64,000 bases of DNA from contig NZ_LODL01000013.1 in NCBI RefSeq assembly GCF_001551835.1, positions 62,001 through 126,000 of the forward strand. Reading direction: 5' to 3'. Shown one piece after another: positions 31,788-57,301 of this stretch; position 1 is the first letter of the stretch, and each line of letters begins with the position of its first letter. Under the pieces are notes generated by a model that saw only the letters and a program-made list of their open reading frames with translations, had not been told where the DNA came from and did no database searches. The position numbers and the translations under genes are program-made. The stretch is from Dechloromonas denitrificans (lineage in GTDB: Bacteria; Pseudomonadota; Gammaproteobacteria; Burkholderiales; Rhodocyclaceae).

Positions 31788-31799
31788 GGAGCGCACGCC

Positions 31800-32696
31800 A
31801 TGTGGGAATACTCTGACAAGGTTCGCGAACATTTTTTCAACCCGCGCAACTCCGGTCCGCTGGAAGAGGCGAACGGTATCGGTGATGTCGGTTCCATCCA
31901 GTGCGGCGACGCACTGCGCCTGATGCTCAAGGTCGAGCCGGAAACCGAGATCATCCTCGACGCCCATTTCCAGACCTTCGGCTGCGGCTCGGCCATCGCT
32001 TCCTCTTCCGCGCTGACCGAAATGGTCAAGGGCATGACGCTGGACCAGGCGCTCGAAGTCTCGAACCAGAATATCGCCGACTACCTCGACGGTCTGCCGC
32101 CGGAAAAGATGCACTGTTCGGTGATGGGCCGCGAAGCCCTGCAGGCCGCCATCGCCAACTACCGCGGCGAGGAGTGGTCGGATGATCACGAAGAGGGCGC
32201 GCTGATCTGCAAGTGTTTCGCCATCGACGCCGTGATGATCGAGGACGTGGTCAAGGCCAACAACCTGAACACGGTCGAGGAAGTGACCTTCTACACCAAG
32301 GCGGGTGGCGGTTGCGCGGCTTGCCACGAGGGGATCGAGGAAATTCTCGCCAAGGTCATGGCCGATCGTGCCGGCCCGGGCGAAGTGTCGCCGCCGCCGG
32401 CCTGCCCGGCAACGCCGGAAGCCCCGAAGCCGCCGGCCAAGAAGCTGTCGATCGTCGAGAAGATCAAGAAGATCGAGGAAGTGCTTGAGTCGGTCCGCCC
32501 GATGCTGCAGCGCGACCATGGTGATGTCGAACTGGCCGACGTGCAGGGCAAGAAGATCTACGTCCATCTGAAGGGAGCCTGCTCCGGTTGCATGATGGAA
32601 GCAGCGACCTTGGGCGGCATCCAGCAGAAGATGATCGAAACCCTGGGCGAACTGGTGCAGGTGCTGCCGTCATCGCACATGCCGGCCGAAGTCTGA
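31800..32696 (+). CDS. nifU: NifU, Fe-S cluster assembly scaffold
   Basis: A 298-residue three-domain protein. The IscU-like N-terminal domain (1-125) has cysteines in [21 protein letters not shown] and KMHCSVMG; a central [2Fe-2S] domain (about 135-185) has CKCF and CAACHEG; a Pro/Ala-rich linker leads to the Nfu domain with [10 protein letters not shown] (about 260). NifU builds [4Fe-4S] clusters with sulfur from NifS for NifB and NifH. Length and order are canonical. Confidence 0.97.
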
Positions 32697-32740
32697 TCCC
32701 CAAGCCCCCAATCCCGACAGAAAACGCAAAGGACAGCGCC

Positions 32741-33949
32741 ATGGACCCCATCTATCTGGACAACAACGCCACCACGCGCTGCGACCCTGCAGTGGTGGAA
32801 GCCATGCTCCCGTTCTTCACGGAGCATTTCGGCAACGCCTCGTCGATTCATGCCTTCGGCAGCGAAGTCGGCAAGGCCCTGAAGAAGGCCCGGGGCCAGG
32901 TGCAGGCGCTGCTCGGCGCCGAACATGACTCGGAAATCATCTTCACTTCCTGCGGCACCGAGTCCGACTCGACCGCCATCCTGTCGGCGCTGAAGGCGCA
33001 GCCGGACCGCAATACGGTGATCACCACCGTCGTCGAGCATCCGGCCATCCTGACGCTGTGTGAATGGCTGGAAAAGGAAGGCTACATCGTCCACAAGCTG
33101 AAGGTGGACAAGAAGGGACGCATCGACATCGACGAGTACCGTTCCCTGTTGAACGACCGCGTCGCCATCGTTTCGGTGATGTGGGCCAACAACGAAACCG
33201 GCACCATCTTCCCGGTCGAGCAGATGGCCGAAATGGCGGCAGCCAAGGGCATCATGTTCCACACCGATGCGGTACAGGCCGTCGGCAAGATCCCCATCGA
33301 TCTGAAGAACACCAAGATCGACATGCTGTCGCTTTCCGGGCACAAGCTGCACGCCCCGAAAGGGATCGGCGTGCTCTACCTGCGTCGTGGTTGCCGCTTC
33401 CGCCCGCTGTTGCGCGGCGGCCATCAGGAACGCGGTCGGCGGGCCGGTACCGAGAATTCGGCCTCCATCGTCGGCCTCGGCATGGCCTGCGAACTGGCCA
33501 TGCAGCATATGGCCGAGGAGAACACCACGGTCAAGCGCCTGCGCGACAAGCTGGAAACCGGCATCCTGAGCCAGATCACGCATTGCTTCCCAACCGGCGA
33601 CGTCAGCAACCGGCTGCCCAACACCAGCAATATCGCCTTCGAATATATCGAGGGCGAGGCCATCCTGCTGCTCTTGAACAAAATGGGGATTGCCGGCAGC
33701 TCCGGTTCGGCCTGTACCTCCGGCTCGCTGGAACCCTCGCACGTCATGCGCGCCATGGGCATTCCCTATACCGCAGCCCACGGCACCATCCGTTTCTCGC
33801 TGTCCCGCTACAACACCGAAGCCGAAGTCGATCGGGTGATCGAGGCCGTACCGCCGATCATCGCCCAACTGCGCAAGCTTTCGCCGTACTGGAACGACAA
33901 GGGCCCGGCCACCAATCCGGAGGCAGCGTTCGCCCCGACTTACGCCTGA
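32741..33949 (+). CDS. nifS: NifS, cysteine desulfurase
   Basis: A 402-residue PLP enzyme. It begins PIYLDNNATTRCDP; the PLP lysine lies in SLSGHKLHAPKGIGVLY, and the catalytic cysteine loop reads SGSACTSGSLEPSHVM (about 323-338). It releases sulfur from cysteine for assembly on NifU. The ATG at 32741 has AAAGGA upstream; a longer in-frame ATG overlaps nifU. An intrinsic terminator follows 34 bases downstream. Confidence 0.97.
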   Translation: MDPIYLDNNATTRCDPAVVEAMLPFFTEHFGNASSIHAFGSEVGKALKKARGQVQALLGAEHDSEIIFTSCGTESDSTAILSALKAQPDRNTVITTVVEHPAILTLCEWLEKEGYIVHKLKVDKKGRIDIDEYRSLLNDRVAIVSVMWANNETGTIFPVEQMAEMAAAKGIMFHTDAVQAVGKIPIDLKNTKIDMLSLSGHKLHAPKGIGVLYLRRGCRFRPLLRGGHQERGRRAGTENSASIVGLGMACELAMQHMAEENTTVKRLRDKLETGILSQITHCFPTGDVSNRLPNTSNIAFEYIEGEAILLLLNKMGIAGSSGSACTSGSLEPSHVMRAMGIPYTAAHGTIRFSLSRYNTEAEVDRVIEAVPPIIAQLRKLSPYWNDKGPATNPEAAFAPTYA

Positions 33950-34492: not shown

Positions 34493-35503
34493 ATGATTTT
34501 GGTGACAGGCGGGGCTGGCTATATTGGCTCTCATACCGTGGTTGAATTGCTGGCCAGCGGACACGAACTGGTGGTGTTCGACAATTTCTCGAATAGTTCG
34601 CCAAAGGTCTTTGAGCGGATCGAGACTATTTCGGGTAAGCGCCCCATTGTGCTTGAGGGCGATATCCGCGATGGCGAATCATTGAAGGCGGTCTTCCGGG
34701 ATTACCCGATATCGGCGGTGATTCATTTTGCCGGGCTGAAGGCCGTGGGCGAGTCGGTCGAGCAACCGATGCGTTACTACGACAACAATGTCGTTGGCTC
34801 CCTGCGCCTGTTTGAAGCGATGGCTGAAGCCAATGTCTTCAATTTGGTCTTCAGTTCTTCGGCAACGGTCTATGGTGATCCGCACACGGTGCCTATCCTT
34901 GAGCATTTTCCGTTGCAGGCTACCAACCCGTATGGACGCTCGAAGCTGGTTATCGAAGATATGTTGCGTGACATTGCACGAGCCGATTTGCGCTGGAAAA
35001 TTGCTCTTCTGCGCTATTTCAATCCGGTCGGCGCTCATGTCAGCGGGCTTATCGGAGAGGACCCGCAGGGCATTCCGAATAATCTGATGCCCTTTGTTGC
35101 CCAGGTTGCGATTGGACGGCGTCAGGAGCTGGGGGTTTTTGGTGATGACTACCCGACGATAGATGGAACTGGAGTCAGAGACTACATCCATGTCGTAGAT
35201 CTGGCGAAAGGCCATCTCGCGGCCTTGGACGCACTGCCATCGCTGAATGGGGCAACTCCGATCAACCTCGGCACCGGGCAGGGCCATAGCGTTCTGGAGG
35301 TTGTTGCGGCTTTTGAACGAGCTTCCGGGCGTCCCGTTCCCTATCGTATTGCACCAAGACGGGCCGGTGACGTTGCTGCATGCTATGCCGATCCCTCCTG
35401 TGCACAAGAATTACTGGGCTGGTCGGCCATGCATGGCCTTGACTCGATGTGTCAGGATGTTTGGCGCTGGCAGTCAGCGAATCCGCTGGGTTACAACGAA
35501 TAA
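34493..35503 (+). CDS. galE: UDP-glucose 4-epimerase
   Basis: A 336-residue short-chain dehydrogenase-type epimerase. The NAD motif VTGGAGYIGSHT is at the start, the catalytic Ser/Tyr/Lys are in FSSSATVYG and NPYGRSK, and the GalE-type substrate loop includes YFNPVGAH and IPNNLMPFVAQVA. It interconverts UDP-glucose and UDP-galactose, giving precursors for the exopolysaccharide genes to its right. It begins the region of visibly lower GC content. Confidence 0.93.
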   Translation: MILVTGGAGYIGSHTVVELLASGHELVVFDNFSNSSPKVFERIETISGKRPIVLEGDIRDGESLKAVFRDYPISAVIHFAGLKAVGESVEQPMRYYDNNVVGSLRLFEAMAEANVFNLVFSSSATVYGDPHTVPILEHFPLQATNPYGRSKLVIEDMLRDIARADLRWKIALLRYFNPVGAHVSGLIGEDPQGIPNNLMPFVAQVAIGRRQELGVFGDDYPTIDGTGVRDYIHVVDLAKGHLAALDALPSLNGATPINLGTGQGHSVLEVVAAFERASGRPVPYRIAPRRAGDVAACYADPSCAQELLGWSAMHGLDSMCQDVWRWQSANPLGYNE

Positions 35504-35843
35504 TTGCAAGAAGCCCTGTGCGGCATGCGGTTGGTGGTGTTGGATATTCTCACCTAACACGATTTTGCTGCCAGTCTGTATTTGGTGATTCAAAAAGGCA
35601 TGTCGGAATAATTTACAGTGCCCTGGTTGCTTTGCTGCGTTTATTTGGACTTTTGGTTTTATTTTTCATTGAATCAATAGGTTGGATTGGTTTTTGTTGC
35701 TTGGTTTGGAATTTGCTTTACTGAGACATGGGACATGCTGCATCGCGTGTTCTTTATGTGAAGTAACTCACAACAACGCGGTTGGATGTTTGTTATCCTT
35801 GGTCTAATCAGCAATGGTTGGGGTGAAAGGTGAGGATAGGGTC
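35504..35843. other. AT-rich gap with a sigma-54-like promoter
   Basis: This stretch holds no gene I can support; a 91-codon frame at 35449-35724 starts inside galE and lacks a ribosome site. A sigma-54-like element lies at 35702-35717, followed by leader sequence for the gene at 35844. Confidence 0.6.
35702..35717 (+). promoter_or_regulatory. Sigma-54-like promoter upstream of the HPr-rel-A locus
   Basis: TGGTTTGGAATTTGCT has exact GG-N10-GC spacing and a good TTTGCT -12 half, but a weak -24 half (TGGTTT). The predicted start is near 35728. The window's PrsR is a possible activator. Confidence 0.55.
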
Positions 35844-36554
35844 ATGGACGATAAAAAAATCGAACTAGAAAACAATGGAGCCGCTGACCTTGTGTCGGAT
35901 TCGCCAAGCAAAATTGACAGTGCTCAATCCCGTCGCCGCCTGTTCAGGAAAGGTGCATCGGTTATTGCGGTGACCTTGGTAAGTCGCCCTGTTTTGGCTT
36001 GGCACTGCAAGTCGCCCTCGGCTTGGGGGTCTGAACTAATTAATCCGAATACCAGCCTGAAGACAAATGACGGGCACGATTCTTACGCTGATGAGACTTG
36101 GACTATTTCAAACTGGGTGTCGAATCAATCGAGAAATAATTTTGGCAAGCCTTGGGCGAAGCTCAAAAGCAAGTTTCCTGCATTGAAAGATAGCTCGACT
36201 ACGTCTACTGATAGCCAAGGTAGGACCTATTTTGATTTCACCAAGGTAACGGTATTAAAACTATTTACCTCGGTATCTGGCTTGGCCCGGCCGAGTGGTT
36301 TGACTGACAGCACGAAAATGACGGAAGTATTGAGTCTAGGTAGCGATCTTCAGAAATATACGATCGTTGCTCAGTTGAACTATATTCTTCTGGCGCCGTT
36401 AGGCACTCCGAATGATCTTGATAAGTGCCTGACGCTTCAGGACCTTCAAAGAATGGCAACTGGCTCTTATTCCCCCTCGAATATGGGGAGCGTAACTTGG
36501 GGGCCGATGGAGATTAAGGACTATCTGTTCAACAACTGGATTGTCAGGCCTTAA
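35844..36554 (+). CDS. Unknown exported protein with Tat-like signal, first gene of the HPr-rel-A locus
   Basis: A 236-residue protein that I do not recognise. After 28 mostly polar residues comes SRRRLFRKG (29-37), close to the twin-arginine consensus, then a hydrophobic stretch (about 38-50) and a likely cleavage after VLA (52). The mature start WHCKSPSAWGSELINPN has one Cys and is Trp/Ser/Asn-rich; the rest has no membrane segment or known motif. The ATG at 35844 has an AGGATAGGG site; 35814 is a weaker alternative. Position directly before PqqD-, HprK- and nucleotidyltransferase-like genes suggests it is the substrate of that set, which is inference. Confidence 0.65.
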   Translation: MDDKKIELENNGAADLVSDSPSKIDSAQSRRRLFRKGASVIAVTLVSRPVLAWHCKSPSAWGSELINPNTSLKTNDGHDSYADETWTISNWVSNQSRNNFGKPWAKLKSKFPALKDSSTTSTDSQGRTYFDFTKVTVLKLFTSVSGLARPSGLTDSTKMTEVLSLGSDLQKYTIVAQLNYILLAPLGTPNDLDKCLTLQDLQRMATGSYSPSNMGSVTWGPMEIKDYLFNNWIVRP

Positions 36555-36589
36555 TTGTCAGTGCAGTTAGTGATCATTTTCCAAACCGG

Positions 36590-36880
36590 ATGCCGGAAGC
36601 GATAATTTTTTTGCAAAGCACGGACTTGATTTTCCGTGTTTTTGAAGACGAGGATCTCGCGGTTGTTTATGATCCTCGCAATGGAAATACCCACTTATTC
36701 AGTATTGTCGCTCACGAACTCTACCAACTTCTGGCAAGTGCACCTGCGACCTTGCAGGAACTGAAATTCTCGTTGTTCCAGCGCTTTTCCGACGATGATC
36801 AGGATATGATTACCGCCGCTGTTGATGCTGCATTTGTTCAGCTTCAGTGTGCTGACCTGATTGATATAGTAGCCAATTGA
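36590..36880 (+). CDS. PqqD-like protein of the HPr-rel-A system
   Basis: A 96-residue small protein. FRVFEDEDLAVVYDPRNGNTHLFSIVAHELYQLL and a winged-helix-like second half (QELKFSLFQRFSDDDQDMITAAVDAAFVQLQCADLI) follow the PqqD pattern. PqqD proteins present peptide substrates to modifying enzymes. The next gene starts at a TTG overlapping this stop codon (TTGA), so both are translationally coupled. The ribosome site of this ATG is weak. Confidence 0.75.
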   Translation: MPEAIIFLQSTDLIFRVFEDEDLAVVYDPRNGNTHLFSIVAHELYQLLASAPATLQELKFSLFQRFSDDDQDMITAAVDAAFVQLQCADLIDIVAN

Positions 36881-37797
36881 AGGTTTCCGAGTTTTCCAAA
36901 CATGCTCTTTTTGCGACTCTCCGGTGTGGAGAGTTGTGTATAGACATGTCTCCCTTTGTGGTTCGAGTTCGTTCCGATATTTCGGAGTTGGCTGAAGACA
37001 TTGGCCGGATGTACCAGGATTTCCCTGTTCTTTCCCCAAATTCTTTTGCAGATTTTCATGTCGAAGTTTCCTACGAACGCGGTATTCGGAGATGGGTTAG
37101 GCCGCTGGCCCGGTTTTATTTTGACGGCCGTCCGTCTTTCATCCCGCTTCCTGTGCATCAGGCCTTTCCGATGCTCGAATGGGGGATCAACTGGTGTGTG
37201 GCTGCCCATAGCCATAGCTTTTTGATAGTTCATGCAGCTGTTATTGAGCGGCAGGGGATGGCCGTGGTTATGCCCGCCCCCCCCGGTTCTGGGAAAAGTA
37301 CCTTATGTGCCGCGCTGATAAATCGTGGCTGGCGATTATTGTCCGATGAGTTGGCGCTTTATGATTCTAAAAACAAGCAGCTCTACGGTATGGCGCGCCC
37401 GGTCAGCTTAAAAAACCAGTCGATCCCGGTGATACAGGCTCATACGCCGGCGGCAGAAATCACGTTACCTGTGCCTGATACGACCAAAGGCACGGTAGCC
37501 TTGCTTCGGCCACCATCGGAAAGTGTGCAACAGGTTAAGACTCCGGCCAGACCAACCTGGATAGTTTTGCCACGCTATCAGGCTGATGCGGAGGCTTCCC
37601 TTGAGTCGCTGAACAAAGGTAAGGCATTCATGTTGATTGCAGAGCAGTCCTTCAACTACAACGTCCATGGTCGTGAGGGCTTTGAGGCAGTTGGTGACCT
37701 TGTTGATAGCTGTGAATGCTTTGAATTTACCTATAGTCGTTTAAGTGATGCCGAGCGTGTTTTTGATGATTTACTGGCCAGTCAGATCAAGGGGTGA
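36877..37797 (+). CDS. HprK-related kinase A
   Basis: A 306-residue protein starting at a TTG that overlaps the preceding stop. The central part resembles HPr kinase/phosphorylase: IVHAAVIERQG, the P-loop MPAPPGSGKST (132-142) and LLSDELALY (about 155-163) with the acidic pair. The HPr-specific signature of true HprK was not seen. Haft and colleagues described such proteins as part of an HPr-rel-A system with PqqD-like and nucleotidyltransferase partners; the reaction is unknown. A run of eight C residues (37277-37284) lies in the P-loop codons, so slippage there would disrupt it. Confidence 0.8.
   Translation: MKVSEFSKHALFATLRCGELCIDMSPFVVRVRSDISELAEDIGRMYQDFPVLSPNSFADFHVEVSYERGIRRWVRPLARFYFDGRPSFIPLPVHQAFPMLEWGINWCVAAHSHSFLIVHAAVIERQGMAVVMPAPPGSGKSTLCAALINRGWRLLSDELALYDSKNKQLYGMARPVSLKNQSIPVIQAHTPAAEITLPVPDTTKGTVALLRPPSESVQQVKTPARPTWIVLPRYQADAEASLESLNKGKAFMLIAEQSFNYNVHGREGFEAVGDLVDSCECFEFTYSRLSDAERVFDDLLASQIKG
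37277..37284 (+). repeat. C8 homopolymer tract in the HprK-like P-loop
   Basis: Eight consecutive C residues spanning the Ala-Pro-Pro codons just before GSGKST. A slip here would inactivate the kinase. Confidence 0.85.
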
Positions 37798-37804
37798 CAA
37801 AGGC

Positions 37805-38905
37805 GTGCTTGTTCAATGTTTGCGGGATCCCCGGGCGGTTTTGTCGCTGGGGCCCAGTGGCTGGGATCTGCTAATTCGCCAAGGACGTAGGGCGAACTTG
37901 CTTGGGAAACTTGCTGTTCTGCTTTCAGATTCAGGCTTGATGGCATTGCTCCCTGCGTCACCGAAGGCGCATCTACTTTCCGCTCTGAAAATGGCTGAGC
38001 GTCAGAATTCTGCTATTCATTGGGAGGTGTCTCGTATTTCGGAGGCGTTACGCTCAATCGGTGTGGATATTATTCTTTTGAAGGGGGCTGCCTATGTCTT
38101 GGCCGGGCTGCCGTCTTCAAGAGGGCGTACGTTTTCAGACGTGGATATTCTGGTTCGGAAGAGCGAGATTGTCGATGTCGAGAGTGCGTTGATGATTCAT
38201 GGTTGGCAGGGAAGCCATCATGATGAGTATGACCAGCGGTATTACCGGGAGTGGATGCACGAAATTCCACCGATGTTGCATGTTCGTCGCGGAACAACTA
38301 TCGACGTTCATCATACGATTTTGCCGGAAACCGCTCGCATTCAAGTCGATACGCAAGCGTTGCTGGATCACCCCTTGCCTGTAGAAGGCTTTCACAATGT
38401 TTTCGTTCTCAAACCTATTGACATGGTTTTGCATAGTGCGACCCACTTGTTCCACGAGGGGGAGCTTGACAACGGTTTACGCGATCTTGCGGATTTGGAT
38501 TCAATGCTGCGTCATTTTGGCGCTGAGCATAGTTTTTGGCTTGGGCTTATCCCAAGGGCCAGAGAATTGGGATTGCACCGCCCTCTGTATTACGCCCTGG
38601 TGTTCTCTATGCGTATTTTTAATACCCCATGCCCCAAGAGCATCGTCGCTGAATTGAAGGCAATATCTCCACCATGGCTTGTCAGATGGCTGATGGATGC
38701 TTGCTACACGAGGGCATTGCGCCCGAATCATGCTAGTACTCATACCAGAGGTGCATGGTTGGCAAGGAAAGCACTGTACATAAGATCGCATTGGATAAAA
38801 ATGCCAATGCCGTTGTTGGTCTGGCATTTGTTGCATAAGGCAATAAAAACACCGTCAAAAGAGAGTGAGTTTAATACTCAAAATAGGAAGATTGACGCTC
38901 AATAA
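37805..38905 (+). CDS. Nucleotidyltransferase family protein (HPr-rel-A associated)
   Basis: A 366-residue protein from the GTG at 37805; an ATG at 37748 inside the HprK-like gene is an alternative. The motif LLKGAAYVLAGLPSSRGRTFSDVDILV holds the S-D-V-D metal-binding pair of nucleotidyltransferases. TTIDVHHTIL and HLFHEGELDNGLRDLADLD follow, as in the NTP_transf_5 group. The N-terminus LRDPRAVLSLGPSGWDLLIRQGRRANLL is typical of the family in such loci. It may transfer a nucleotide or sugar-nucleotide group to the exported protein; that is inference. Confidence 0.78.
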   Translation: MLVQCLRDPRAVLSLGPSGWDLLIRQGRRANLLGKLAVLLSDSGLMALLPASPKAHLLSALKMAERQNSAIHWEVSRISEALRSIGVDIILLKGAAYVLAGLPSSRGRTFSDVDILVRKSEIVDVESALMIHGWQGSHHDEYDQRYYREWMHEIPPMLHVRRGTTIDVHHTILPETARIQVDTQALLDHPLPVEGFHNVFVLKPIDMVLHSATHLFHEGELDNGLRDLADLDSMLRHFGAEHSFWLGLIPRARELGLHRPLYYALVFSMRIFNTPCPKSIVAELKAISPPWLVRWLMDACYTRALRPNHASTHTRGAWLARKALYIRSHWIKMPMPLLVWHLLHKAIKTPSKESEFNTQNRKIDAQ

Positions 38906-38906
38906 G

Positions 38907-39671
38907 TTACTGAGATTCCAGCATGTTTTTTAGATGATTGGCTGGAATGGCATAGCTTATGCCGGAAGGCTGGCTCAAAACAGCTTCTTTTGTGCTCTTG
39001 ATGAAGACCATGTTAATGATGCCAATGATTTCACCATGCTCAATGTCAAAGACTGGACTGCCACTATTTCCGGGGTAGGCGGTAGCATCAAGCTGAAAAA
39101 TATTAAATGTTCCACTTTTTATGCGACGGATTACTTTTTCATTGAGTTGCTGTGCGTTCCCTCCTGGCAGCACGATCGGGGTGATTGAGGAAATCATCCC
39201 TCGGTGCGTAACCGGTGAGAAGCCGAGAGCTCCTCCGATAGGGAAACCGGTAAAACCGATGAGTTGTCCTTCGCGAACTGAGTCGGAGTTCCTAAGTTTG
39301 AGAGCGGGGAGGGCGGAACCCTCGATTCGCAAAATCGCTAAGTCATGATCGCGATCGCGAGACGACAAATAAGCCTGCCTAAGCTGTGAAACTCCGTTGG
39401 CATTTTTTACCTGGACCGCAAGTACGGCTGAGTCAGGGTCTGTACTCTCTGGTACAACATGAGCGTTGGTGGCTACCAGGTTTCCATTGCCGATGATGAA
39501 TCCGGTGCCACGTAGAACAAATTGGGGGCTATTGGTTTTTTTGTAGGTGCCAACAACAACGATCGAAGGTTTTATGTGCTCAATCAAGTCAGCAATTTCA
39601 GCGGTAGCGAGTATTGGCTGCATCAAGACAAATGCAAAAAAAAGCCGTTTCGCCGATGAGTTCAGTCTCAT
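38907..39671 (-). CDS. Trypsin-like serine protease (S1C, HtrA-like without PDZ)
   Basis: A 254-residue protein. A signal peptide (LFFAFVLMQPILATA) is followed by a protease domain with catalytic His in VATNAHVV, Asp in RDHDLAIL and Ser in AYPGNSGSPVF. There is no PDZ domain, so it is shorter than HtrA/DegP. It acts in the periplasm. The ATG overlaps the stop of the lytic transglycosylase upstream (TGATG), so both are one unit. Its stop codon lies just after the end of the convergent nucleotidyltransferase gene. Confidence 0.9.
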   Translation of the reverse strand: MRLNSSAKRLFFAFVLMQPILATAEIADLIEHIKPSIVVVGTYKKTNSPQFVLRGTGFIIGNGNLVATNAHVVPESTDPDSAVLAVQVKNANGVSQLRQAYLSSRDRDHDLAILRIEGSALPALKLRNSDSVREGQLIGFTGFPIGGALGFSPVTHRGMISSITPIVLPGGNAQQLNEKVIRRIKSGTFNIFQLDATAYPGNSGSPVFDIEHGEIIGIINMVFIKSTKEAVLSQPSGISYAIPANHLKNMLESQ

Positions 39672-40561
39672 CACATTAGCCTGCGTGAAGCAATTTTTTG
39701 TAACTCAGGCGAAGGGCCTGTAACGCTTGGATCAAAGGGGTGATCCTCTCGTTTGAATATGTCTCTAATCCGCTTTACGTAGCCTTGAGTTTCTGGATAG
39801 GGAGGAATACCTGCGAATCGGTTTACCGCTCCTTCGCCTGCATTGTATGCCGCGGCAACCAGTGTCACATCACCTTTAAAGTAGGCCAATAACCAACGCA
39901 GGTAGGCGAGTCCTCCTCGGATATTTTGTTCGGGGTCGAACGGCTTTCTGACGTTGAATCGTTCAGCTGTTTCCGGAATCAGTTGCATTAGGCCTTGCGC
40001 ATTCTTTGGTGATACGGCAACTGGGTTAAAATTTGATTCAGCACGGATTATTGCCATCGCAAGTCTAGGGTAGACCCCATATTCAGGGGCAAGCTTAAGC
40101 ACCAGATCCATGACTTTTTTGTGTTCAGGAGTCGCTTTGGCCAAAATGTCATGACCATCGCTATCAAAAAGGCATTCAGGTGCTTTTGAGACTGGGTCGC
40201 CCACTTGGCGGAGCATGCGTAGGGAAAGAGGATCCCCTTGTTTTGCCGCCATGCTAAAAAAGTAGGCAGCAGTAGCGTCATCCCGCTGAATACCTCGTCC
40301 ATTGGCGTACATCCAACCAAGATTGTATTGCGCTTCAACATCGCCAAGGCGTGCAGCCTCGCAGTACAACTGGATGGCTTTTTCGGCATCGCGCTTTACG
40401 CCGTCACCGTGTTCATAAGTGCGCCCTTCAAGCCTTAACGCGATAGCGAGCTCTGCATTGCGATTTTCTGCGAATGCCGGCTTGAATATGATGCTACCTA
40501 GAACTAAAGCAAACAACACCCAAGGTTTTGAGTTACGGTAAATTAACCTTGGGTGTGTCAT
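39671..40561 (-). CDS. Sel1-repeat lytic transglycosylase (SLT domain)
   Basis: A 296-residue exported protein. A signal peptide (FALVLGSIIFKPAFA) precedes two Sel1-type repeats (AIQLYCEAARLGDVEAQYNLGWMYANGRG...) and a C-terminal transglycosylase domain with catalytic Glu in IRAESNFNPVAVSPKNAQGLMQL and the AAYNAGEGAVNRFAG motif. It cleaves peptidoglycan glycan strands, perhaps opening the wall for export machinery of this locus. The ATG has GGGGAG upstream. It overlaps the protease gene. Confidence 0.92.
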   Translation of the reverse strand: MTHPRLIYRNSKPWVLFALVLGSIIFKPAFAENRNAELAIALRLEGRTYEHGDGVKRDAEKAIQLYCEAARLGDVEAQYNLGWMYANGRGIQRDDATAAYFFSMAAKQGDPLSLRMLRQVGDPVSKAPECLFDSDGHDILAKATPEHKKVMDLVLKLAPEYGVYPRLAMAIIRAESNFNPVAVSPKNAQGLMQLIPETAERFNVRKPFDPEQNIRGGLAYLRWLLAYFKGDVTLVAAAYNAGEGAVNRFAGIPPYPETQGYVKRIRDIFKREDHPFDPSVTGPSPELQKIASRRLM

Positions 40562-41882: not shown

Positions 41883-44654
41883 TTAAAGTTCTTTTTGAAG
41901 GCGGGCTACATCAGCTTGCCCTTGGAATTTTTCACCGAGTTTGGCTAGCGCGTTTAGTTCAGCACGTGCCTCCTCTTTTCGTCCTGAACTGATCAGTATC
42001 TTTGCTAAATTAAGCTGTATCGCAGCCGCATTAGGGGAAATGACCAACGCCTTGCGCAGAATTTCGATGGCTTTGGCTGTTTCGCCTTTTTCCGCCAGAA
42101 GCATCGCCAAGGTGTCCATGAATGGCGGTTGGTTGGGGGCCAATTGATTGGCTTTTTCCGCATACTCCAATGCTTTTGGAGATTTTATTTGTCCCGAAAC
42201 CCAGGCCAGATTGTTCAGTACGAAAGGGTTGTTGGGTTGTATCTCAAGTACAGCGCGATAGTGCTGAACTGCGCTTGGGTAGTCTTTCCTCGCAGTCGCT
42301 ACATCACCTAAATGGGAACGGAAGATAGTATCTTTCGGATGCTCTTTTACCCAAGTATTTGAGAATTTTTCTTGTTCAATGGTGTTGCCAGAAGCTAACA
42401 GTACTGAGTGAAGTTTTACAGCGAGTTCTGGCGCTGCTCCTTGCTTTATTCCTGCACGATAGGCTGCGATGGCTTCCGGCCAGTGCTTGTTTGATGCATG
42501 AATATCACCTTCCAGAATGAAACCGCTCGGCTCCTTGGGGCGCTGCTTTTGCACTTCTCGCGCTAGCGCTAAGGCATCTTCAGGTTTTTTGTTGTCCAGA
42601 GCCAACAGGATCAGGCCTCGCTGAGCTTCAAGAAGATCTGGCTTGACTTCAAGAGCCTTGCGCAGACTTTTTGATGCATCATCCTTGTTGGCGTTGGCGA
42701 TGTGAATTTCAGCCATGCGCATATACGCAACTGGCGAAGCTGGCTGCAGGGCCGCCAGCTTTCCGTAGGTTACCAATGCTTGATTGGAATCGCCTGCAGC
42801 TCTTTGCGTGCGGCCTACAGCGTCAAGCAACTCGGGTTTGTCGGGCATCGCTGCCAGCGCATCCTGAGCTGCTGTCTGCGCTTTTTTTGTTTCCTTGCTG
42901 CGCAGATAAAACTCGATTAAGGCTAAACGGGGGGCTAGTTCTGCCGGATTGGTTTCAATCGCCTTGTTAATTAGGGCAACAACTTCTTCTGGTTTGCCCC
43001 CTGATGCATTTTTAAGATCAGCCAGAGCGATTAGCGCTCCAAGGTTATTGGGATCCGTAGCAAGCACTCTCTCAAAGCGCTTACGGGCATCATCAGGTTT
43101 TTTGTCCGCCATATCCATTGCTGCAAGACTGACCGCTGCAGGAAGGAATGCTGGATTGATTGATAGCGATTTTTCAAAACTAATGCGCGCTCCAGCGGGA
43201 TCATTCTTAGCCAATTGCGTGCGGGCTCGCAAATTGTAGGTGGCTGGATTGTCAGGTTGCTTGCGTTCCAAACTGTCGATGGCCTTGAGAGCCTTGTCCA
43301 GTTCATTACGTCGCAAGTAGGTTGCAATTAACGCCAGGTCCGCAGTTATGCCTTTGTCTGATGCCGATATTTTTTCCAGTTCGGTGTAACCGGTATTTAT
43401 GTCGCCAAGAGCCATATGGGCAATGGCTAGCGATGTTCTCTTCGCTGGGTCGCTAGGATCAAGCTGGTTTGCTTTGGCAAAAAACTCTTCTGCCTTCTTG
43501 GCGTCACCGTTCTGGAGGAATGTTTGTCCAGCCAGTGTAAGCAAGGCGGGATCTTTATCGATTCGTCCGAGTGCCGGCGAGAGTGTGGTCATGGCTTTGG
43601 CAGCTTGTCCTGTCCGCAAGTAATTCGAGACAAGGAGGCGACGAGCAAGAAGCATGTCCGGCGCCTGTTGCAGTGCCTTGTTCAAATATGACTCAGCTTG
43701 TATGTAGGAGCGAAGTTGATATTCGATGGCCCCTGCAATTTGTAGAGCATTCGGATTGTTCGGGGTGAGCCTCAAGAGTTGTTGAGCCAACTCACGAGCG
43801 GCTTTGTAGTCCTTCCGCTGATAGGTGAGTTGAGTGTCCAAATAGATAGTCTGCGGATGTTTCGCAGCTATTTTCTTTAGTGCATCAAGTTGCTTGTTTG
43901 CATCATCTACTTTCCCTTGCTGCATGAGTATCGAGATAATCGCGGCGTGAGCTGGCAGAAAGTCATTTTTGACTTCCGTTGCCTTGCGATACAGCTCAAG
44001 CGATTTTTCCTGATTACCCTGAACCGTAGCGAGCGAGGCATTGAGAAAAAGCGCCTCGTGATTATTGGATGCTTTGGCCAGAACACTGTCGACGATGGCT
44101 TGAGCGCCTGCGTAATCGCTGTTCGCAGCTTTTAACCGGGCTTCTGCCAACAACGCTGGTGCGTAATCTGGTTGAGCTGTTAATGCAGCCTTCAATGCTG
44201 CAAGAGCGGCCTCTCGATTTCCCTGGACTAGATAAGCTGCGCTCAATGTAGTCTTTAGGTTGGCGGATGGTTCCGTTGAGGAAAGTTCTAGCTTTGAGAA
44301 TTCATCGGTGATTTTTTTTGCTTGCCCGGTGCCGAGCAAGGCTCTAGCAAGCAAGGGTACGGTTTCTTCTTGCGAGAACTTGAGTTCCAAAGCTTTTCTA
44401 AGTTCGACTTCGGCTCCTGCTGCATCGCCGCTTTCAAGCAGGGCTTTACCCAATAGGAAGCGAGCCTCACCGAGATTCGGATTTTGTTGAAGAGCATTTT
44501 TAAATTGGATTGCAGCTGCTTTGCTATCGTTCTTGGAAAGATAGTCTCGCCCGGATGCAATAAGCGTTTCCGGCTTGTCGCCACTACAGCCAGCTAAGGC
44601 TGTCAGCAAGACCGTCGAGATTGCTGCAGACCGAAAAAGGTTTCTTTTACTCAT
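41883..44654 (-). CDS. prsT: PrsT, TPR-repeat lipoprotein of the XrtA/PEP-CTERM system
   Basis: A 923-residue protein. A lipoprotein signal with lipobox ALAGC (Cys 23) is followed by a long array of tetratricopeptide repeats through the C-terminus. The start ETLIASGRDYLSKNDSKAAAIQFKNALQQNPN is typical of PrsT. It is probably anchored to a periplasmic face of the envelope and helps assembly or export of exopolysaccharide. prsT, prsR and prsK form a consecutive leftward set. A transcription unit with prsR is likely (23-base gap). Confidence 0.9.
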   Translation of the reverse strand: MSKRNLFRSAAISTVLLTALAGCSGDKPETLIASGRDYLSKNDSKAAAIQFKNALQQNPNLGEARFLLGKALLESGDAAGAEVELRKALELKFSQEETVPLLARALLGTGQAKKITDEFSKLELSSTEPSANLKTTLSAAYLVQGNREAALAALKAALTAQPDYAPALLAEARLKAANSDYAGAQAIVDSVLAKASNNHEALFLNASLATVQGNQEKSLELYRKATEVKNDFLPAHAAIISILMQQGKVDDANKQLDALKKIAAKHPQTIYLDTQLTYQRKDYKAARELAQQLLRLTPNNPNALQIAGAIEYQLRSYIQAESYLNKALQQAPDMLLARRLLVSNYLRTGQAAKAMTTLSPALGRIDKDPALLTLAGQTFLQNGDAKKAEEFFAKANQLDPSDPAKRTSLAIAHMALGDINTGYTELEKISASDKGITADLALIATYLRRNELDKALKAIDSLERKQPDNPATYNLRARTQLAKNDPAGARISFEKSLSINPAFLPAAVSLAAMDMADKKPDDARKRFERVLATDPNNLGALIALADLKNASGGKPEEVVALINKAIETNPAELAPRLALIEFYLRSKETKKAQTAAQDALAAMPDKPELLDAVGRTQRAAGDSNQALVTYGKLAALQPASPVAYMRMAEIHIANANKDDASKSLRKALEVKPDLLEAQRGLILLALDNKKPEDALALAREVQKQRPKEPSGFILEGDIHASNKHWPEAIAAYRAGIKQGAAPELAVKLHSVLLASGNTIEQEKFSNTWVKEHPKDTIFRSHLGDVATARKDYPSAVQHYRAVLEIQPNNPFVLNNLAWVSGQIKSPKALEYAEKANQLAPNQPPFMDTLAMLLAEKGETAKAIEILRKALVISPNAAAIQLNLAKILISSGRKEEARAELNALAKLGEKFQGQADVARLQKEL

Positions 44655-44677: not shown

Positions 44678-46036
44678 TTATTTCAGGCCTAGTCTATGCA
44701 TCAGGTCATACAGAGTAGGGCGGCTGATCCCTAGGATTTCTGATGCTCGCATGAGGTTGCCATTAGCTCGCCCAAGCGCTGTAACAATGGCGCGTCTTTC
44801 TGCCTCATCGCGTACACGGCGTAGGTCAATAAACTCACTGTCGTCTTCTGCTGCTTGATTGAGGCCAATGTCTTCGCGCGTAATTTGGGAGCCATCAGCC
44901 ATAATAACTGAACGTTTTATGCAGTTTTCAAGCTCTCGTACATTGCCTGGCCATGGATGAGCCTCTATTGCCCGAACAGCATCTTCAGTAAGTGCCATGT
45001 TGCCGCAATTTTGCTCTGCGGCAAAACGCCTGACAAAGGCATGTGCGAGTAATGCAGGGTCACCCTTGCGTAGCCGGAGCGGGGGGATAGTAATAATTAT
45101 TTCCGCAAGCCGGTAGTAGAGATCTTCGCGGAAGCGACCTTCTTTTATTAGGGTGTCAAGGTCTTGATGGGTAGCGCAGACAATGCGGACGTCGACAGGA
45201 ATTTCCTGGCGTCCACCGATACGTTCAATGACCCGCTCCTGAAGGAATCGTAACAATTTGGATTGCAAGGGGAGTGGCAAATCACCGATTTCATCCAGAA
45301 ACAGGGTGCCGGTATGGGCTGTTTCGATTTTCCCTGGCGTGGTCTTGGCGGCTCCGGTAAATGCCCCCTTTTCGTAACCAAAAAGTTCGCTTTCAAGCAA
45401 ATTGTCAGGAATGGCTGCGCAATTTATGGCTACAAAGCGCTCTTTTCTTCGTGGCGAACTATCATGCAAGCCTCGCGCCAGAACTTCTTTGCCGGTCCCA
45501 CTTTCGCCTAGTAAGAGGACAGTTGCATTGCTGTTCGCCACTTTTTCAATGGTACGGCACACACGCAGCATTTCAGCATCACGAGTAATCAACCCGGCAA
45601 GAGCAGCAGGATGTTGCATTTCCTGCAGACGCCGGTTTTCCTGCTGAAGGTCAAATAGGCGGAATGCGCGCTCAATCGTTAGCGTAAGTAATTCGGGTTC
45701 GAATGGTTTTGCAAAAAAATCATAGGCACCGAGGGCTATTGCACGCAATGCATTGGCCCGGTCATTTTGTCCGGTTAGTACAATTACTTTAGTTTCGGGC
45801 GCAGTGGATACGATCTGTTCCAGTAGACGAAATCCCTCGGAGACTGAGTCTGCATCAGGTGGGAGCCCAAGATCCATGGTTACGACAGGTGGACTGTGTC
45901 GGTGAATCTGCAGTAGCGCACTTTCACGGTCATCTGCGGTCAACGTTTCAAATTGATCAAAAGACCAGCGCAATTGTTTTTGAAGGGCCGGGTCGTCTTC
46001 GACGATAAGTAAAGGGCGGCGCTTTTCGGTGCTCAC
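44678..46036 (-). CDS. prsR: PrsR, sigma-54 response regulator of the PEP-CTERM system
   Basis: A 452-residue NtrC-family regulator. A receiver domain (about 7-125, phospho-acceptor Asp 55 in VTMDLGLPP) is followed by AAA+ ([15 protein letters not shown] loop, [10 protein letters not shown]) and a C-terminal Fis helix-turn-helix ([20 protein letters not shown]). With PrsK it controls PEP-CTERM protein genes from sigma-54 promoters. It overlaps prsK by four bases. The sigma-54-like element at 35702 in this window is a possible target. Confidence 0.94.
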
Positions 46037-48150
46037 GAAGCATCCCCTTCTTTCAAGTCGGACTCGGTTCGCAGATCGAAGAGGGGCAAAATCATTGTGA
46101 TTCTTGTCCCACGGTTTTCTTCACTATCAACCAGCATTTCCCCACCTAGTTCTTTAATGTACTGCGCACTTTCAAAGGCACCAATTCCCATTCCCGATTG
46201 TTTAGTGCTTTGAAATGGTTTGAAGAGACGATTTCGGATGAACTCCTGACTCATGCCGTGACCTGTATCACCAACTTCTATGGCAGCCCGGTCTCCTCGT
46301 TTTTCCAGGGATATCCAAACCCGACCACTCGGATCGGTGGCATCCAGCGCATTTTGAACTAGATGGCCGATGACCCTTTCGAGGCGCTCTTCGTGGCCGC
46401 GAGTGGTTAGCCGCTCATGGAGGCGTATTTCCAATAGTCGACCTTGGTTGATTTTACCGCGTTGTATACGTTCAATGACATCTGGAAGGTTTACGCCACA
46501 TGGAGTACCCGGTGGCGTTGCCCCTTCTCTTAATTGCATCATAAGTTGACGCATACGCTCGACCGAGTGCTCCACCGTCATCAGCATATCCTGTTGGAAC
46601 TCGGGATTGTCTCGATGGCGCTCAGCATTACGCAGCATCAAGGACAACTGGGTGACGATATTTTTCAGGTCATGTACAACGAAGGCTGACATCTTGTTGA
46701 ACGCATCAAATTTCTTTGATTCCAGCAGTGCTTCGGTTGCTTGCATCTTGGCGAGGAAGCCCGCTGCTTGACAGCCGGCCGTGCGTAGCAAATCGTTGAC
46801 TTCCCAATTGATGTCGATTCGGGTTCGAGAACTTGTCAGGATCACAAAGCCATTGATCTCGGTGCCCACCATTAACGGAACAATAAGCCACGCGTTCGGA
46901 ATGTTTGACACCCAAGCCGGAATATCGAGCTGACCGTAGCGGCCAGGAAAACAACGGTACTCTTCTAGATTGATGACCCAGCCACTGGTCAAAAGAAATT
47001 GGACTAGAGGAGACTCGAAGCCTTCTCTGCTGCTTTCAACAGGAATGTTCCAGCGAGCAGCTTGGCAAAAAATGGTGCGTCCGGAATCGAGTAACCAGAG
47101 TCCGCCACCAGGGCTTTCAACCATGTTGGCCAAGCCGCGAACGACTTGCTGTCCCATGGCTTGCGGCGAGTCCTGGGTGGATAGCGTTTGTGTGAAGCGT
47201 AGCCATTCCTCTCTGTAATCATAGCGATAGCTGAAAAAGTGCTTGCCGACCAATACGCGCAATTTGGCGCGCATCGATCCGGAAACTACTAAATAACCTA
47301 GGCCTAACAGTCCGGCGAACAGCAAACCCAATTGAAGTGCCCGGCCCCAGTCTCCGCCAAAATAGCGAACGTAGTAACCAATGCCGGACATGAATAACAA
47401 ATACAGACCGGCGATTAGCAGTGTTGCTGAATGAAAGGCGGCTTTTTGTGAGAGGCGGATTTTTGAGGTCCAGTCGCGGCTTCGTAGTGTGGAGGCTATG
47501 AAAAGTGGAATGACTAGTGTATTGACAAAGCCACGGACGGCTAAAGCATCAGCATCAATCCGGTTGAACATCAATGCGTCGGAATAAAGATACAAGTCGA
47601 AGATGAAAAGACCGCCAAGACCAAGGCAGAGCGGTTTTACGTTCCATCGAGAGTCTTCCGATACGTTGCGGAACAATTGCTCAACCAGGATCAGGCCGAG
47701 AAGTATCATCAACAATGCTTGGAAAAGTACTGTCCTGGCCCAATGTTCTATCGAGATCAGGCCAAAACCTATCGCCAGATGCAATGCAATGCCGCTGATG
47801 ACGGCAACCCAGCAAGCGGGCGTAAGCCACGACGCTATCGTGGGTCGTGTTTTCTCGACGGACTTTTTGTCAAACGCGAGAAGTAGAATCAAAAAGCCAT
47901 ACCAACTTCCGTAGCGAAGAAAGTCGGCGAGGGTGTTGGCCAAAAGAAGGAGGGGGGAGTCGGTAAGCGCAAAGGCGGTGCCTAGGCCTGCCCAGCAAGC
48001 CGAAATCAGCATCGTTAACAGCAATGCTCGAGGGCGAGCGCTATGGCGCCATTCTGTGCCAAGTGAAAATAAGTAGGCAGCAAACAGCAGGTAGCCACTT
48101 GCTGCAATTCCGAAGCTCCAGGCGATCAGCGATGCCGGTTGGTTTTCCAT
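46033..48150 (-). CDS. prsK: PrsK, membrane sensor histidine kinase of the XrtA/PEP-CTERM system
   Basis: A 705-residue protein. About ten N-terminal membrane helices (to residue 290) are followed by a GAF-like domain (about 310-450), then a kinase core with FVVHDLKNIVTQLSLMLRNAERH (His acceptor) and ATPase motifs LVQNALDAT, VGDTGHGMS and GMGIGAFES. This is the PrsK architecture. It probably phosphorylates PrsR, encoded immediately downstream with a four-base overlap. The signal is unknown. Confidence 0.93.
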   Translation of the reverse strand: MENQPASLIAWSFGIAASGYLLFAAYLFSLGTEWRHSARPRALLLTMLISACWAGLGTAFALTDSPLLLLANTLADFLRYGSWYGFLILLLAFDKKSVEKTRPTIASWLTPACWVAVISGIALHLAIGFGLISIEHWARTVLFQALLMILLGLILVEQLFRNVSEDSRWNVKPLCLGLGGLFIFDLYLYSDALMFNRIDADALAVRGFVNTLVIPLFIASTLRSRDWTSKIRLSQKAAFHSATLLIAGLYLLFMSGIGYYVRYFGGDWGRALQLGLLFAGLLGLGYLVVSGSMRAKLRVLVGKHFFSYRYDYREEWLRFTQTLSTQDSPQAMGQQVVRGLANMVESPGGGLWLLDSGRTIFCQAARWNIPVESSREGFESPLVQFLLTSGWVINLEEYRCFPGRYGQLDIPAWVSNIPNAWLIVPLMVGTEINGFVILTSSRTRIDINWEVNDLLRTAGCQAAGFLAKMQATEALLESKKFDAFNKMSAFVVHDLKNIVTQLSLMLRNAERHRDNPEFQQDMLMTVEHSVERMRQLMMQLREGATPPGTPCGVNLPDVIERIQRGKINQGRLLEIRLHERLTTRGHEERLERVIGHLVQNALDATDPSGRVWISLEKRGDRAAIEVGDTGHGMSQEFIRNRLFKPFQSTKQSGMGIGAFESAQYIKELGGEMLVDSEENRGTRITMILPLFDLRTESDLKEGDAS

Positions 48151-48194: not shown

Positions 48195-49577
48195 TTAGTG
48201 AGCACCTTTGCCTGTCAAGACGACACCAACTGTTTCGAATAGAACGACCATGTCAAGGAAAAGAGAGTGGTTCTTAACGTAGTAGAGATCGTATTGCAAC
48301 TTTTCAGCTGAGTCCTCAACGGTGGCACCATAGTGATAGCGTACTTGTGCCCAGCCAGTGACTCCCGGTTTGACACTATGGCGAACGGCATAAAAAGGAA
48401 TTTCTTTGGTTAATTGGTCGACAAAAAATGGGCGTTCTGGGCGAGGGCCAACGAGGCTCATGTCGCCTTTTAGAACGCTGAACAGTTGAGGAAGTTCGTC
48501 AATGCGTAGTCTTCGGATGAATTTTCCAACCTTGGTGACGCGATCATCCTGCGCCTTGGCCCAGATCGGTTTGCCATCCTTTTCTGCATCACGCCGCATG
48601 CTGCGAAACTTGATGACATTAAACAAGCGGCCGTTCAGACCAACCCGCTCTTGGCGATAAAACAATGGGAATCCATTTTCCGCGACGATCAGGATGCCTG
48701 TCGCCAGCATTACCGGCATTGCGAGAATAATCAGGATCGAAGCAAAAACAATGTCGAATAAACGTTTGACGACGGTTCGTAGGGTTCCCTGGCGAAACCC
48801 ATCACCGAAAATAAGCCAGCCAGCATAGAGAGAGTCGAGGCGGATTTGCCCTAGTGTTTGCTCGAAATGGCTGGCCAGATCCATTACGCGTATGCCGTGC
48901 AGCTTGCAGTCGAGTAGTTCGCGAAGTGGCATTGATCCGCCACGGCGCTCACTCAGTGCCACCACAATTTCATTGGCTCTCAGAGCAATCGCGGTATCAG
49001 TCAGGGTTTTGCTCCGGGAGAGAATCTGTGTCTCCGGGACGACATGCGCCTCCTCGTTCGGGCTGGGAATGAAGCCAATTATTTCGGCGGACGGATCTGA
49101 TTTGGCGAGGGCGCGCTTGACTGAAAGTGCTTGTGAGCCGGCGCCAAATATCAGTATGCGACGGCTGACGAGTGTGCTGCTATTTCTATGGGAGGCACTG
49201 ACGCGATTGACCAGCATGCCGAATACCGCAGACATTGCGGATAGCTGAGCAAATTCCCGACTAATGTCGGTTACTGGAAGCAATGCAAAAACCGCATAGG
49301 CAAGGGGTACGGCTAAATAGAGCGACAACACAGCTCTTGCTCTGCTTTCGCTGACCGTACGGTTGTGTATCCGCTGATAAAAGCCTAGCCAGCCATTGAC
49401 GATTAGCACAGTCACGCCAAGGATTGCGGCAAACAGTAGGAGGTGACTGTGATTGATCGGAAGGCCGCTACTGATCCACATGAAGGCAATGAGCATCCCG
49501 ACAATAATGAATGAGAGGTCAAAGATCATCTGTATCAAGCTGCGCCAACTGAACCAGTGACTAAAGATTTTGACCAT
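48195..49577 (-). CDS. XrtA/PEP-CTERM-associated undecaprenyl-phosphate sugar transferase
   Basis: A 460-residue protein. Four or five N-terminal membrane helices, a Rossmann-like middle (RRILIFGAGSQALSVKRAL) and a C-terminal bacterial sugar transferase domain (KRLFDIVFASILIILAMPVM, FYRQERVGLNGRLFNVIKFRSMR, DELPQLFSVLKGDMSLVGPRPERP). It starts repeat-unit assembly by putting a sugar-phosphate on the lipid carrier. The C-terminal block matches the family seen only with XrtA loci. It lies ahead of prsK in the same direction. Confidence 0.93.
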   Translation of the reverse strand: MVKIFSHWFSWRSLIQMIFDLSFIIVGMLIAFMWISSGLPINHSHLLLFAAILGVTVLIVNGWLGFYQRIHNRTVSESRARAVLSLYLAVPLAYAVFALLPVTDISREFAQLSAMSAVFGMLVNRVSASHRNSSTLVSRRILIFGAGSQALSVKRALAKSDPSAEIIGFIPSPNEEAHVVPETQILSRSKTLTDTAIALRANEIVVALSERRGGSMPLRELLDCKLHGIRVMDLASHFEQTLGQIRLDSLYAGWLIFGDGFRQGTLRTVVKRLFDIVFASILIILAMPVMLATGILIVAENGFPLFYRQERVGLNGRLFNVIKFRSMRRDAEKDGKPIWAKAQDDRVTKVGKFIRRLRIDELPQLFSVLKGDMSLVGPRPERPFFVDQLTKEIPFYAVRHSVKPGVTGWAQVRYHYGATVEDSAEKLQYDLYYVKNHSLFLDMVVLFETVGVVLTGKGAH

Positions 49578-57191: not shown

Positions 57192-57301
57192 GTCCTTCAT
57201 GTTTCACAACTGCCGCATAAAGATGATCCAGATAGGTGAGAAAGTTTCTCAGTAGAGAGTCTGAATGCGTGATGCCAATAATTGCCAAGGAATCATTTCC
57301 A

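Follow-up and report, generated by a model that had tools for sequence, protein, structure and literature searches.

A four-gene cassette in Dechloromonas denitrificans

We analyzed a 64,000-nucleotide (nt) stretch of the 4.24-Mb Dechloromonas denitrificans genome (contig NZ_LODL01000013.1, positions 62,001 to 126,000), which is called the window here. The analysis centered on a cassette of four adjacent genes coding for an exported protein (EXP), a PqqD-like protein, an HprK-related kinase, and an NTP_transf_5 nucleotidyltransferase (Table 1). A sequence-only reading of the window had described a four-gene locus with an exported protein that resembled substrates of the twin-arginine translocation (Tat) pathway. 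The open reading frames and the sequence confirmed the existence and the order of the genes, as well as the SRRRLFRKG motif and the hydrophobic stretch in EXP.

The kinase matched TIGR04352 with 400 bits (cut-off of 200), and the product of the adjoining, overlapping PqqD-like gene matched TIGR04353 with 44.1 bits (cut-off of 35). Both scores were above the curated cut-offs, which placed the pair in the HPr-rel-A system. The two families are already named in NCBIfam, and this part of the sequence-only reading stood; its statement that the system is named in the literature found no counterpart, as no relevant paper on the system or on the model names turned up within the library searched. The nucleotidyltransferase matched PF14907 with 198.8 bits (cut-off of 31.2). 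The Pfam PqqD model was touched at an E value of ≤1 by 10 of 23 PqqD-like proteins of the family (best, 1.1e-5) and was not matched at that threshold by the PqqD-like protein of the window.

EXP had no match at an E value of ≤1 in Pfam or NCBIfam. Eight of the 99 EXP proteins that we collected were scanned, and these had no Pfam match and no match that reached an NCBIfam cut-off. Searches of PDB sequences returned nothing useful for EXP or the nucleotidyltransferase, weak HPrK matches alone for the kinase (best E value, 0.0054), and nothing convincing for the PqqD profile. In two plasmid records that carried EXP, the gene was annotated "hypothetical protein." The closest relative of the window EXP was a Dechloromonas hortensis protein with 93% identity (locus L037; L-numbers denote loci and G-numbers denote genomes). 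Because a one-base difference in the region corresponding to 35814 to 35844 puts the upstream ATG of L037 out of frame, position 35844 was favored as the EXP start.

Table 1. Features of the cassette and its surroundings (positions in the window)
Feature	Position	Strand	Basis or remark
EXP, exported protein with Tat-like leader	35844..36554	+	Open frame, 236 amino acids (aa); proposed substrate
Tat-like leader in EXP (SRRRLFRKG ... PVLA), residues 29-52	35928..35999	+	Direct reading
Cys/Ser segment of EXP (C55-K-S57-P-S59-x3-S63), candidate modification site	36006..36032	+	Conservation
PqqD-like protein (TIGR04353), proposed leader-binding protein	36590..36880	+	Family model
HprK-related kinase A (TIGR04352)	36877..37797	+	Family model; TTG start overlaps PqqD stop
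NTP_transf_5 nucleotidyltransferase (PF14907)	37745..38905	+	Open frame; probable start near 37805
PrsR-type box TGTCGGAATAATTTACA (PEP-CTERM "motif 1")	35601..35617	+	De novo dyad and genome search
Sigma-54 -24/-12-like site TGGTTTGGAATTTGCT, 84 nt after the box	35702..35717	+	Score 18 of 23
GalE, UDP-glucose 4-epimerase	34493..35503	+	NCBIfam galE, 449 bits (cut-off 262); upstream neighbor, context
PrsT, PEP-CTERM tetratricopeptide repeat protein	41883..44654	-	TIGR02917, 969 bits; context
PrsR, sigma-54 activator expected to bind the box	44678..46036	-	TIGR02915, 748 bits; context
PrsK, partner histidine kinase	46033..48150	-	TIGR02916, 907 bits; context
EpsB_2, XrtA/PEP-CTERM system glycosyltransferase	48195..49577	-	TIGR03013, 520 bits; context

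EXP is the dedicated partner of the cassette

Linkage was searched with the kinase model instead of EXP to avoid bias. In the class sample, a kinase above the cut-off was found in 27 of 274 genomes, and 26 of these 27 had EXP directly upstream, encoded on the same strand; the exception (L070) was cut by a contig end. The family sample had the kinase in 39 of 101 genomes at 40 places, and EXP was found at all 40, one of them (L163) cut at its start. When the two samples, which overlapped only at the window's own place, were combined, EXP was just upstream at 65 of 66 kinase-found places. PqqD was detected at 60 of the 66 places and the nucleotidyltransferase at 65, its absence in L071 coinciding with a contig end. 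The nucleotidyltransferase was on the opposite strand in four class-sample loci (L065, L067, L072, and L074). The EXP, PqqD, HprK, and nucleotidyltransferase profiles behind these counts were built iteratively on 43 loci, where matches are not independent of the profiles; 35 of the 40 family places were scored with the profiles unchanged, and the other five belonged to the training set. Near-identical loci (for example, L043 to L045) were kept in the counts.

A BLAST search with the window EXP alone found only 5 of the 101 family genomes, including the window's own, compared to 39 with the kinase model, because the core of EXP diverges fast. A profile of 17 class I EXP proteins (defined below) was also run over 249 genomes of the phylum and matched 33 places in 32 genomes; 30 of the 33 places were opened (those in G377, G593, and G502:C12 were left out). 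Two of the 30 loci (L111 and L136) contained the core domain only, with no cassette seen there. PqqD and/or the kinase adjoined EXP in 27 of the remaining 28 loci (the kinase in 24), and L124 had neither; the window and G107 were common to these 28 loci and the 66 kinase-found places. The sequence-only reading had named occurrence of EXP mainly without the other genes as an outcome that would count against it, and the proposal came through the counts in both directions.

Within the 27 cassette genomes, the EXP profile had a single match, at the cassette, in 24, and a second leader-type match in none. As for the other three, G015 had only a core-domain match elsewhere, and G259 and G091 had no match; an additional core-only match was present in G249. 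For comparison we used 27 genomes that were hand-picked among those lacking a kinase above the cut-off, some of them chosen for sub-cut-off kinases. The EXP profile matched three of the 27; in G184 and G101 the match adjoined a sub-cut-off kinase, and the third match was in G036 (L105).

Several related arrangements were observed along the way. Tat-leader peptides of 57 to 87 aa were located beside sub-cut-off HprK homologues in L156 (4576-6391, G101) and L155 (6446-6709, G184), and in L156 one kinase was flanked by two such tiny peptides. The Tat-leader peptide of L105 (1477-1734, minus strand) had a core rich in Gly, Asn, Cys, and Pro (GCNNGVGNG...CNPGN), and no cassette gene was found within 1.5 kb of it. 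On a Vibrio alfacsensis plasmid (L157, 4013-7080), genes were annotated as a hypothetical protein, HprK-related kinase A, and a nucleotidyltransferase; PqqD was found there neither by profile nor in the gene table, which is incomplete. A sister set with the order nucleotidyltransferase, PqqD, and sub-cut-off HprK-like kinase was found in L195 (1340-5115, G307) and L196 (G365), and about 0.9 kb downstream of the set in L195 was a different twin-arginine leader protein with LPEKWVKPVIDTVIVPAHAQ. This is possibly a second leader type that is served by a related module.

EXP combines a conserved leader with divergent cores

Of the 99 EXP genes, 96 were usable; one was masked, one was cut by a contig end, and one was mis-anchored. 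All 96 proteins contained a twin arginine. Read by eye over the 99 loci listed, the leader consensus was roughly RRRLLKGxxAxPVxxTLxSxPALA, and the twin arginine was followed by a hydrophobic stretch and an AxA-like site, which is the sequence pattern of a Tat substrate. No NCBIfam TAT_signal model matched the window EXP.

The exported part ranged from about 13 to 246 residues and fell into unrelated classes. Class I cores had the pattern C-x2-3-S...S, often with S/TPGYWK...ALLNA. The 24 class II proteins had a C[WL]xS motif near the C-terminus; they were assigned by this SC[WL]xS-like motif, which is thus no independent evidence for the class. Odd cores included L065, a 74-aa precursor, and L181 (4279-4725) was a cassette EXP with a Gly/Asn and then a Ser-rich low-complexity tail, which makes it an attractive test case for multi-site phosphorylation. 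We had considered the core as the family-defining part of EXP and dropped the idea, as the S/TPGYWK domain also occurred in larger secreted proteins (L097 and L107) that had no leader and no cassette genes within about 1.5 kb.

A conserved leader and a divergent core encoded beside modifying enzymes is the arrangement of ribosomally synthesized and post-translationally modified peptides (RiPPs). This pattern bears on an alternative in which the kinase, the nucleotidyltransferase, and the PqqD-like protein make a small phosphorylated or nucleotidylated sugar as an exopolysaccharide precursor and EXP is an unmodified, co-transcribed secreted protein that binds or processes it. The cassette does share an exopolysaccharide locus with the genes for GalE and EpsB_2, and PF14907 is still an "Uncharacterised nucleotidyltransferase" in Pfam. 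However, a binding partner or an enzyme would be expected to keep its core, and EXP keeps its leader instead. PqqD-type proteins bind peptides in characterized systems, and the comparable module of lasso clusters has peptides as its substrates. We consider the sugar-precursor explanation unlikely.

Candidate modification sites in the exported part

C55, S57, S59, and S63 were invariant in 12 close EXP members, and both Ser residues matching S59 and S63 were invariant in 17 divergent members. Among the 73 non-class II proteins, 66 had an S-x3-S motif in the 36 residues that follow the leader, compared to 277 of 1,400 control windows taken from the same proteins further on. In addition, the mature part contained C-x2-3-S in 87 of the 96 proteins, compared to 46.2 expected by shuffling, and the motif was found in both core classes.

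The same Cys-Ser enrichment would fit a scheme in which phosphorylation only activates the Ser, the phosphate is eliminated, and the neighboring Cys adds to form a Cys-Ser thioether, as in lanthipeptides. Pfam and NCBIfam scans found no lyase or cyclase family in the four genes, disulfides are a simpler account of the conserved Cys, and a thioether with the Cys N-terminal to the Ser runs in the less usual direction. We regard thioether formation as very improbable.

Catalytic residues and co-divergence of the enzymes with EXP

Counted from the TTG at 36877, kinase residues H119, K140, D157, and E158 were invariant in all 94 sequences compared, and nucleotidyltransferase residues K113, G114, D132, D134, and D187 (numbered from 37745) were invariant in all 90. 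Co-divergence was analyzed with a mirror-tree test over 76 cassettes and 500 permutations, the statistics of which ignore phylogeny. PqqD distance tracked leader distance, with a partial correlation of 0.17 after the kinase and nucleotidyltransferase distances were removed (reached in 0 of 500 permutations), and its correlation with core distance was -0.05. Kinase distance correlated with both leader (0.25) and core (0.25). The PqqD-leader and kinase-core correlations would follow if PqqD binds the leader and the kinase acts on the core.

The leader is also the shared part of the EXP proteins, with a recurrent Thr/Ser-Leu-x-Ser stretch (seen by eye, with no comparison with other Tat signals), and the kinase and nucleotidyltransferase distances tracked it as well. 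PqqD might chiefly be a Tat proofreading chaperone, and the other two enzymes might license export by modifying either the leader or this chaperone, with the mature protein leaving unmodified. Such a license would explain neither why the exported part keeps its Cys-Ser motifs nor why a nucleotidyltransferase is needed, and we think it improbable.

Relationship to lasso peptide clusters and other systems

Close parallels to the cassette were in lasso peptide clusters, which share with it an HprK-homologous kinase, a PqqD-like protein (B1), an annotated nucleotidyltransferase, and a leader-bearing precursor. According to the available text of two reviews (PMC9266682, PMC8498205), the HPr kinase homologue PadeK phosphorylates the paeninodin precursor at its C-terminal Ser, and the annotated nucleotidyltransferase PsmN, which accompanies the kinase PsmK, is needed for the addition of one to two hexoses to the phospho-Ser of pseudomycoidin. 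PsmN is likened to the window enzyme by annotation. Nucleotidyltransferases of the PsmN kind that are fused to lasso B2 are mentioned in one of the two reviews. We found one such fusion, of PF14907 to lasso B2, in a Deinococcus plasmid protein that the window nucleotidyltransferase matched with an E value of 5e-5 and 30% identity over half of the query; its locus also coded for a 63-aa peptide, a PqqD protein, and a protein that matched HPr kinase weakly, with an endonuclease gene in between.

The differences were also clear. Lasso clusters have a macrolactam synthetase (C) and a B2 protease, and neither was found among the four cassette genes (the scan for B2 covered these four). A gene about 18 kb away (57236-58978) was considered as a lasso cyclase and rejected, as it scored 126 bits against a cut-off of 525. 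The cassette precursor is usually 100 to 250 aa with a Tat-like signal, whereas lasso precursors are short peptides with an ATP-binding cassette (ABC) exporter. The cassette kinase has H-K-D-E in place of the H-K-D-D of lasso kinases.

In the SynChlorMet cassette, HprK-like ScmC is paired with PqqD-like ScmD. The window kinase matched ScmC weakly (30.7 bits, cut-off of 125), and Pfam and NCBIfam scans found no radical S-adenosylmethionine (SAM) family among the four genes, unlike in SynChlorMet. The HPr-rel-A model names cover the kinase and the PqqD-like protein. The PrsR box, the link to the nucleotidyltransferase, and the exported partner with its leader are absent from those names and from the papers found within the library searched. 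In the literature searched, no paper on NTP_transf_5 or SynChlorMet was found, and queries combining twin arginine, RiPP recognition element (RRE), PqqD, and HPr kinase returned only lasso peptide papers. The available text of an Accumulibacter secretome paper (PMC12019908) contained no mention of Tat or HprK.

A PrsR-type box upstream of the cassette

In front of PEP-CTERM genes, Haft and co-workers described a 17-nt "motif 1" that ends in TTTACA and is separated by 32 to 92 nt from a sigma-54 site downstream, and they assigned this motif to PrsR (PMC1569441, available text). In other work, one PEP-CTERM gene was shown to depend on RpoN (PMC9850573, available text). The region upstream of the window EXP has this arrangement: a 17-nt box, which was absent from the sequence-only reading, a spacer of 84 nt, and a -24(GG)/-12(GC) site. 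The sequence-only reading had noted the sigma-54-like promoter, and it was right about the kind of site, which proved to be enriched over the family; it missed what the site means as part of a PEP-CTERM regulon.

The sigma-54 site was by itself mediocre and was not kept in L037, and we dropped it as proof of regulation. Because this site is weak, the regulon claim rests on the box and on family statistics, for which control windows were random same-locus stretches, some overlapping real sites. Sigma-54 scores of at least 18 were found in 80 of 97 cassette upstream regions, compared to 23% of control windows. An unsupervised dyad count recovered TGTC-N8-TTAC in 48 of the 97 regions, compared to about 1.5 expected from control windows. 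The box and a sigma-54 site occurred together in 45 of 97 cassettes (mean spacer, 75 nt) and in 21 of 1,940 control windows; the combination was rarer (4 of 20) in loci of mixed classes and a Sphingomonas plasmid.

In the genome of the window, the exact box occurred four times, before this cassette and before three PEP-CTERM genes, and a reversed-pattern control occurred nowhere. The three other boxes were 72 to 171 nt upstream of genes for proteins with what look by eye like typical PEP-CTERM tails. When the search was limited to the window and one mismatch was permitted, there was one box match with 0.70 expected, which is not beyond chance. The cassette is apparently switched on together with PEP-CTERM biofilm surface proteins. 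In D. hortensis (L037, about 1660-1960), the box and the sigma-54 spacing before the EXP gene look decayed, as if control of EXP there had been lost or changed.

Genomic context

The cassette shares its genomic region, as well as its regulatory arrangement, with the PEP-CTERM/XrtA system: PrsT, PrsR, and PrsK are encoded 3 to 9 kb downstream, and an XrtA exosortase is located at contig position 130821, about 31 kb from the kinase and about 5 kb past the right end of the window. XrtA scored above its cut-off in 22 of the 27 cassette genomes and in 4 of the 27 hand-picked comparison genomes. EXP differs from PEP-CTERM proteins in that it has a Tat-like leader and no PEP-CTERM tail (a C-terminal PEP-helix-Arg); it ends in DYLFNNWIVRP and is not an exosortase substrate by sequence. 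The gene at 57236-58978, in the exopolysaccharide locus, codes for an asparagine-synthase-like amidotransferase that scored 253 bits against the XrtA/PEP-CTERM amidotransferase model (cut-off of 817). Trypsin-like protease and Sel1/lytic transglycosylase genes are convergent with the cassette (38907-40561, minus strand), and IscA/NifU/NifS-like iron-sulfur assembly genes were recognized by eye at 31464-33949.

A proposed pathway for EXP modification and export

We propose, with a probability of roughly 0.6, that the cassette makes a single post-translationally modified exported protein and that EXP is the substrate, which would be capped, exported by Tat, and produced under PrsR activation with the PEP-CTERM genes. 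In the proposed pathway, the Tat signal region of EXP would double as a RiPP-like leader, and the PqqD-like protein, acting as an RRE, would grip it in the cytoplasm. The kinase would then phosphorylate a Ser/Thr in the exported part, most likely a Ser beside the conserved Cys after the leader (S59 and S63 in the window EXP) or, in class II, the Ser of C-W/L-x-S near the C-terminus. The NTP_transf_5 enzyme may cap the phosphate with a sugar or a nucleotide, as reported for PsmN in pseudomycoidin. Export by Tat would suit a protein that has to be completed in the cytoplasm, and finished EXP would join the exopolysaccharide/PEP-CTERM layer. A PrsR-activated sigma-54 promoter would drive transcription of the cassette alongside the PEP-CTERM genes.

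The sequence-only reading had proposed that the trio modifies EXP before Tat export. That the trio acts on EXP at this stage is well supported by the gene linkage, and the chemistry is modeled on lasso peptide homologues. The analysis demonstrates that the cassette is a unit, that its leader is conserved and its core variable, that the catalytic residues are intact, and that the regulatory box is present; leader binding by PqqD, phosphorylation and its site, capping, the sequence of these steps, the Tat route, PrsR binding, and the fate of EXP in the matrix are inferred.

A number of observations weigh against the proposed pathway. The core classes have no conserved Ser that is common to all of them, and S-x3-S after the leader is missing in 7 of the 73 non-class II proteins. 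The fourth kinase residue is Glu in 94 of 94 sequences, whereas lasso kinases keep His-Lys-Asp-Asp (PMC9266682, available text). In the case of PsmN, the review in PMC9266682 allows for nucleotidylation followed by host glycosylation. The co-divergence effects are small, and nucleotidyltransferase distance tracks the leader (0.15) nearly as PqqD distance does. PqqD went undetected in 6 of the 66 kinase-found loci, where the gap between EXP and the kinase is 198 to 293 nt. EXP had no adjoining kinase at four phylum-search loci (L124/L151, L125/L152, L128/L154, and L132, the last with about 1 kb of flank seen), and L124/L151, where the contig ends 1.2 kb downstream, also had no PqqD. As for regulation, the composite box pattern is missing in 52 of the 97 upstream regions, including that of L037, and base arithmetic predicts about two exact boxes by chance in such a genome, to be read beside the empty reversed control.

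Judged against the library searched, novelty appears to lie in the dedicated Tat-leader partner family and its division into leader and core, in the connection with the lasso module, and in the place of the cassette in the PEP-CTERM regulon. An enzyme set that had placeholder names only thereby gains a proposed substrate family, a leader, candidate sites, and a regulon, and a vague annotation becomes a testable one. EXP seems to be tagged before export, much as peptide antibiotics are finished in some bacteria. If the proposed pathway is correct, a lasso peptide tailoring module would be widened to whole Tat-exported proteins, and a cytoplasmic protein-modification system would be connected with the PEP-CTERM/exopolysaccharide machinery. 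Activated-sludge bacteria need parts of this machinery to form flocs (PMC9850573, available text).

In a further variant, which we rate as unlikely, the nucleotidyltransferase-related enzyme would prime a sugar on the phospho-Ser, the exopolysaccharide would be tied covalently to EXP through a phosphodiester, the leader of this RiPP-like pathway would be the Tat signal, and the product would be the whole folded protein, co-expressed with the PEP-CTERM proteins. If this were true, EXP would be a protein core by which the polysaccharide and the protein layer are joined in flocs and biofilms.

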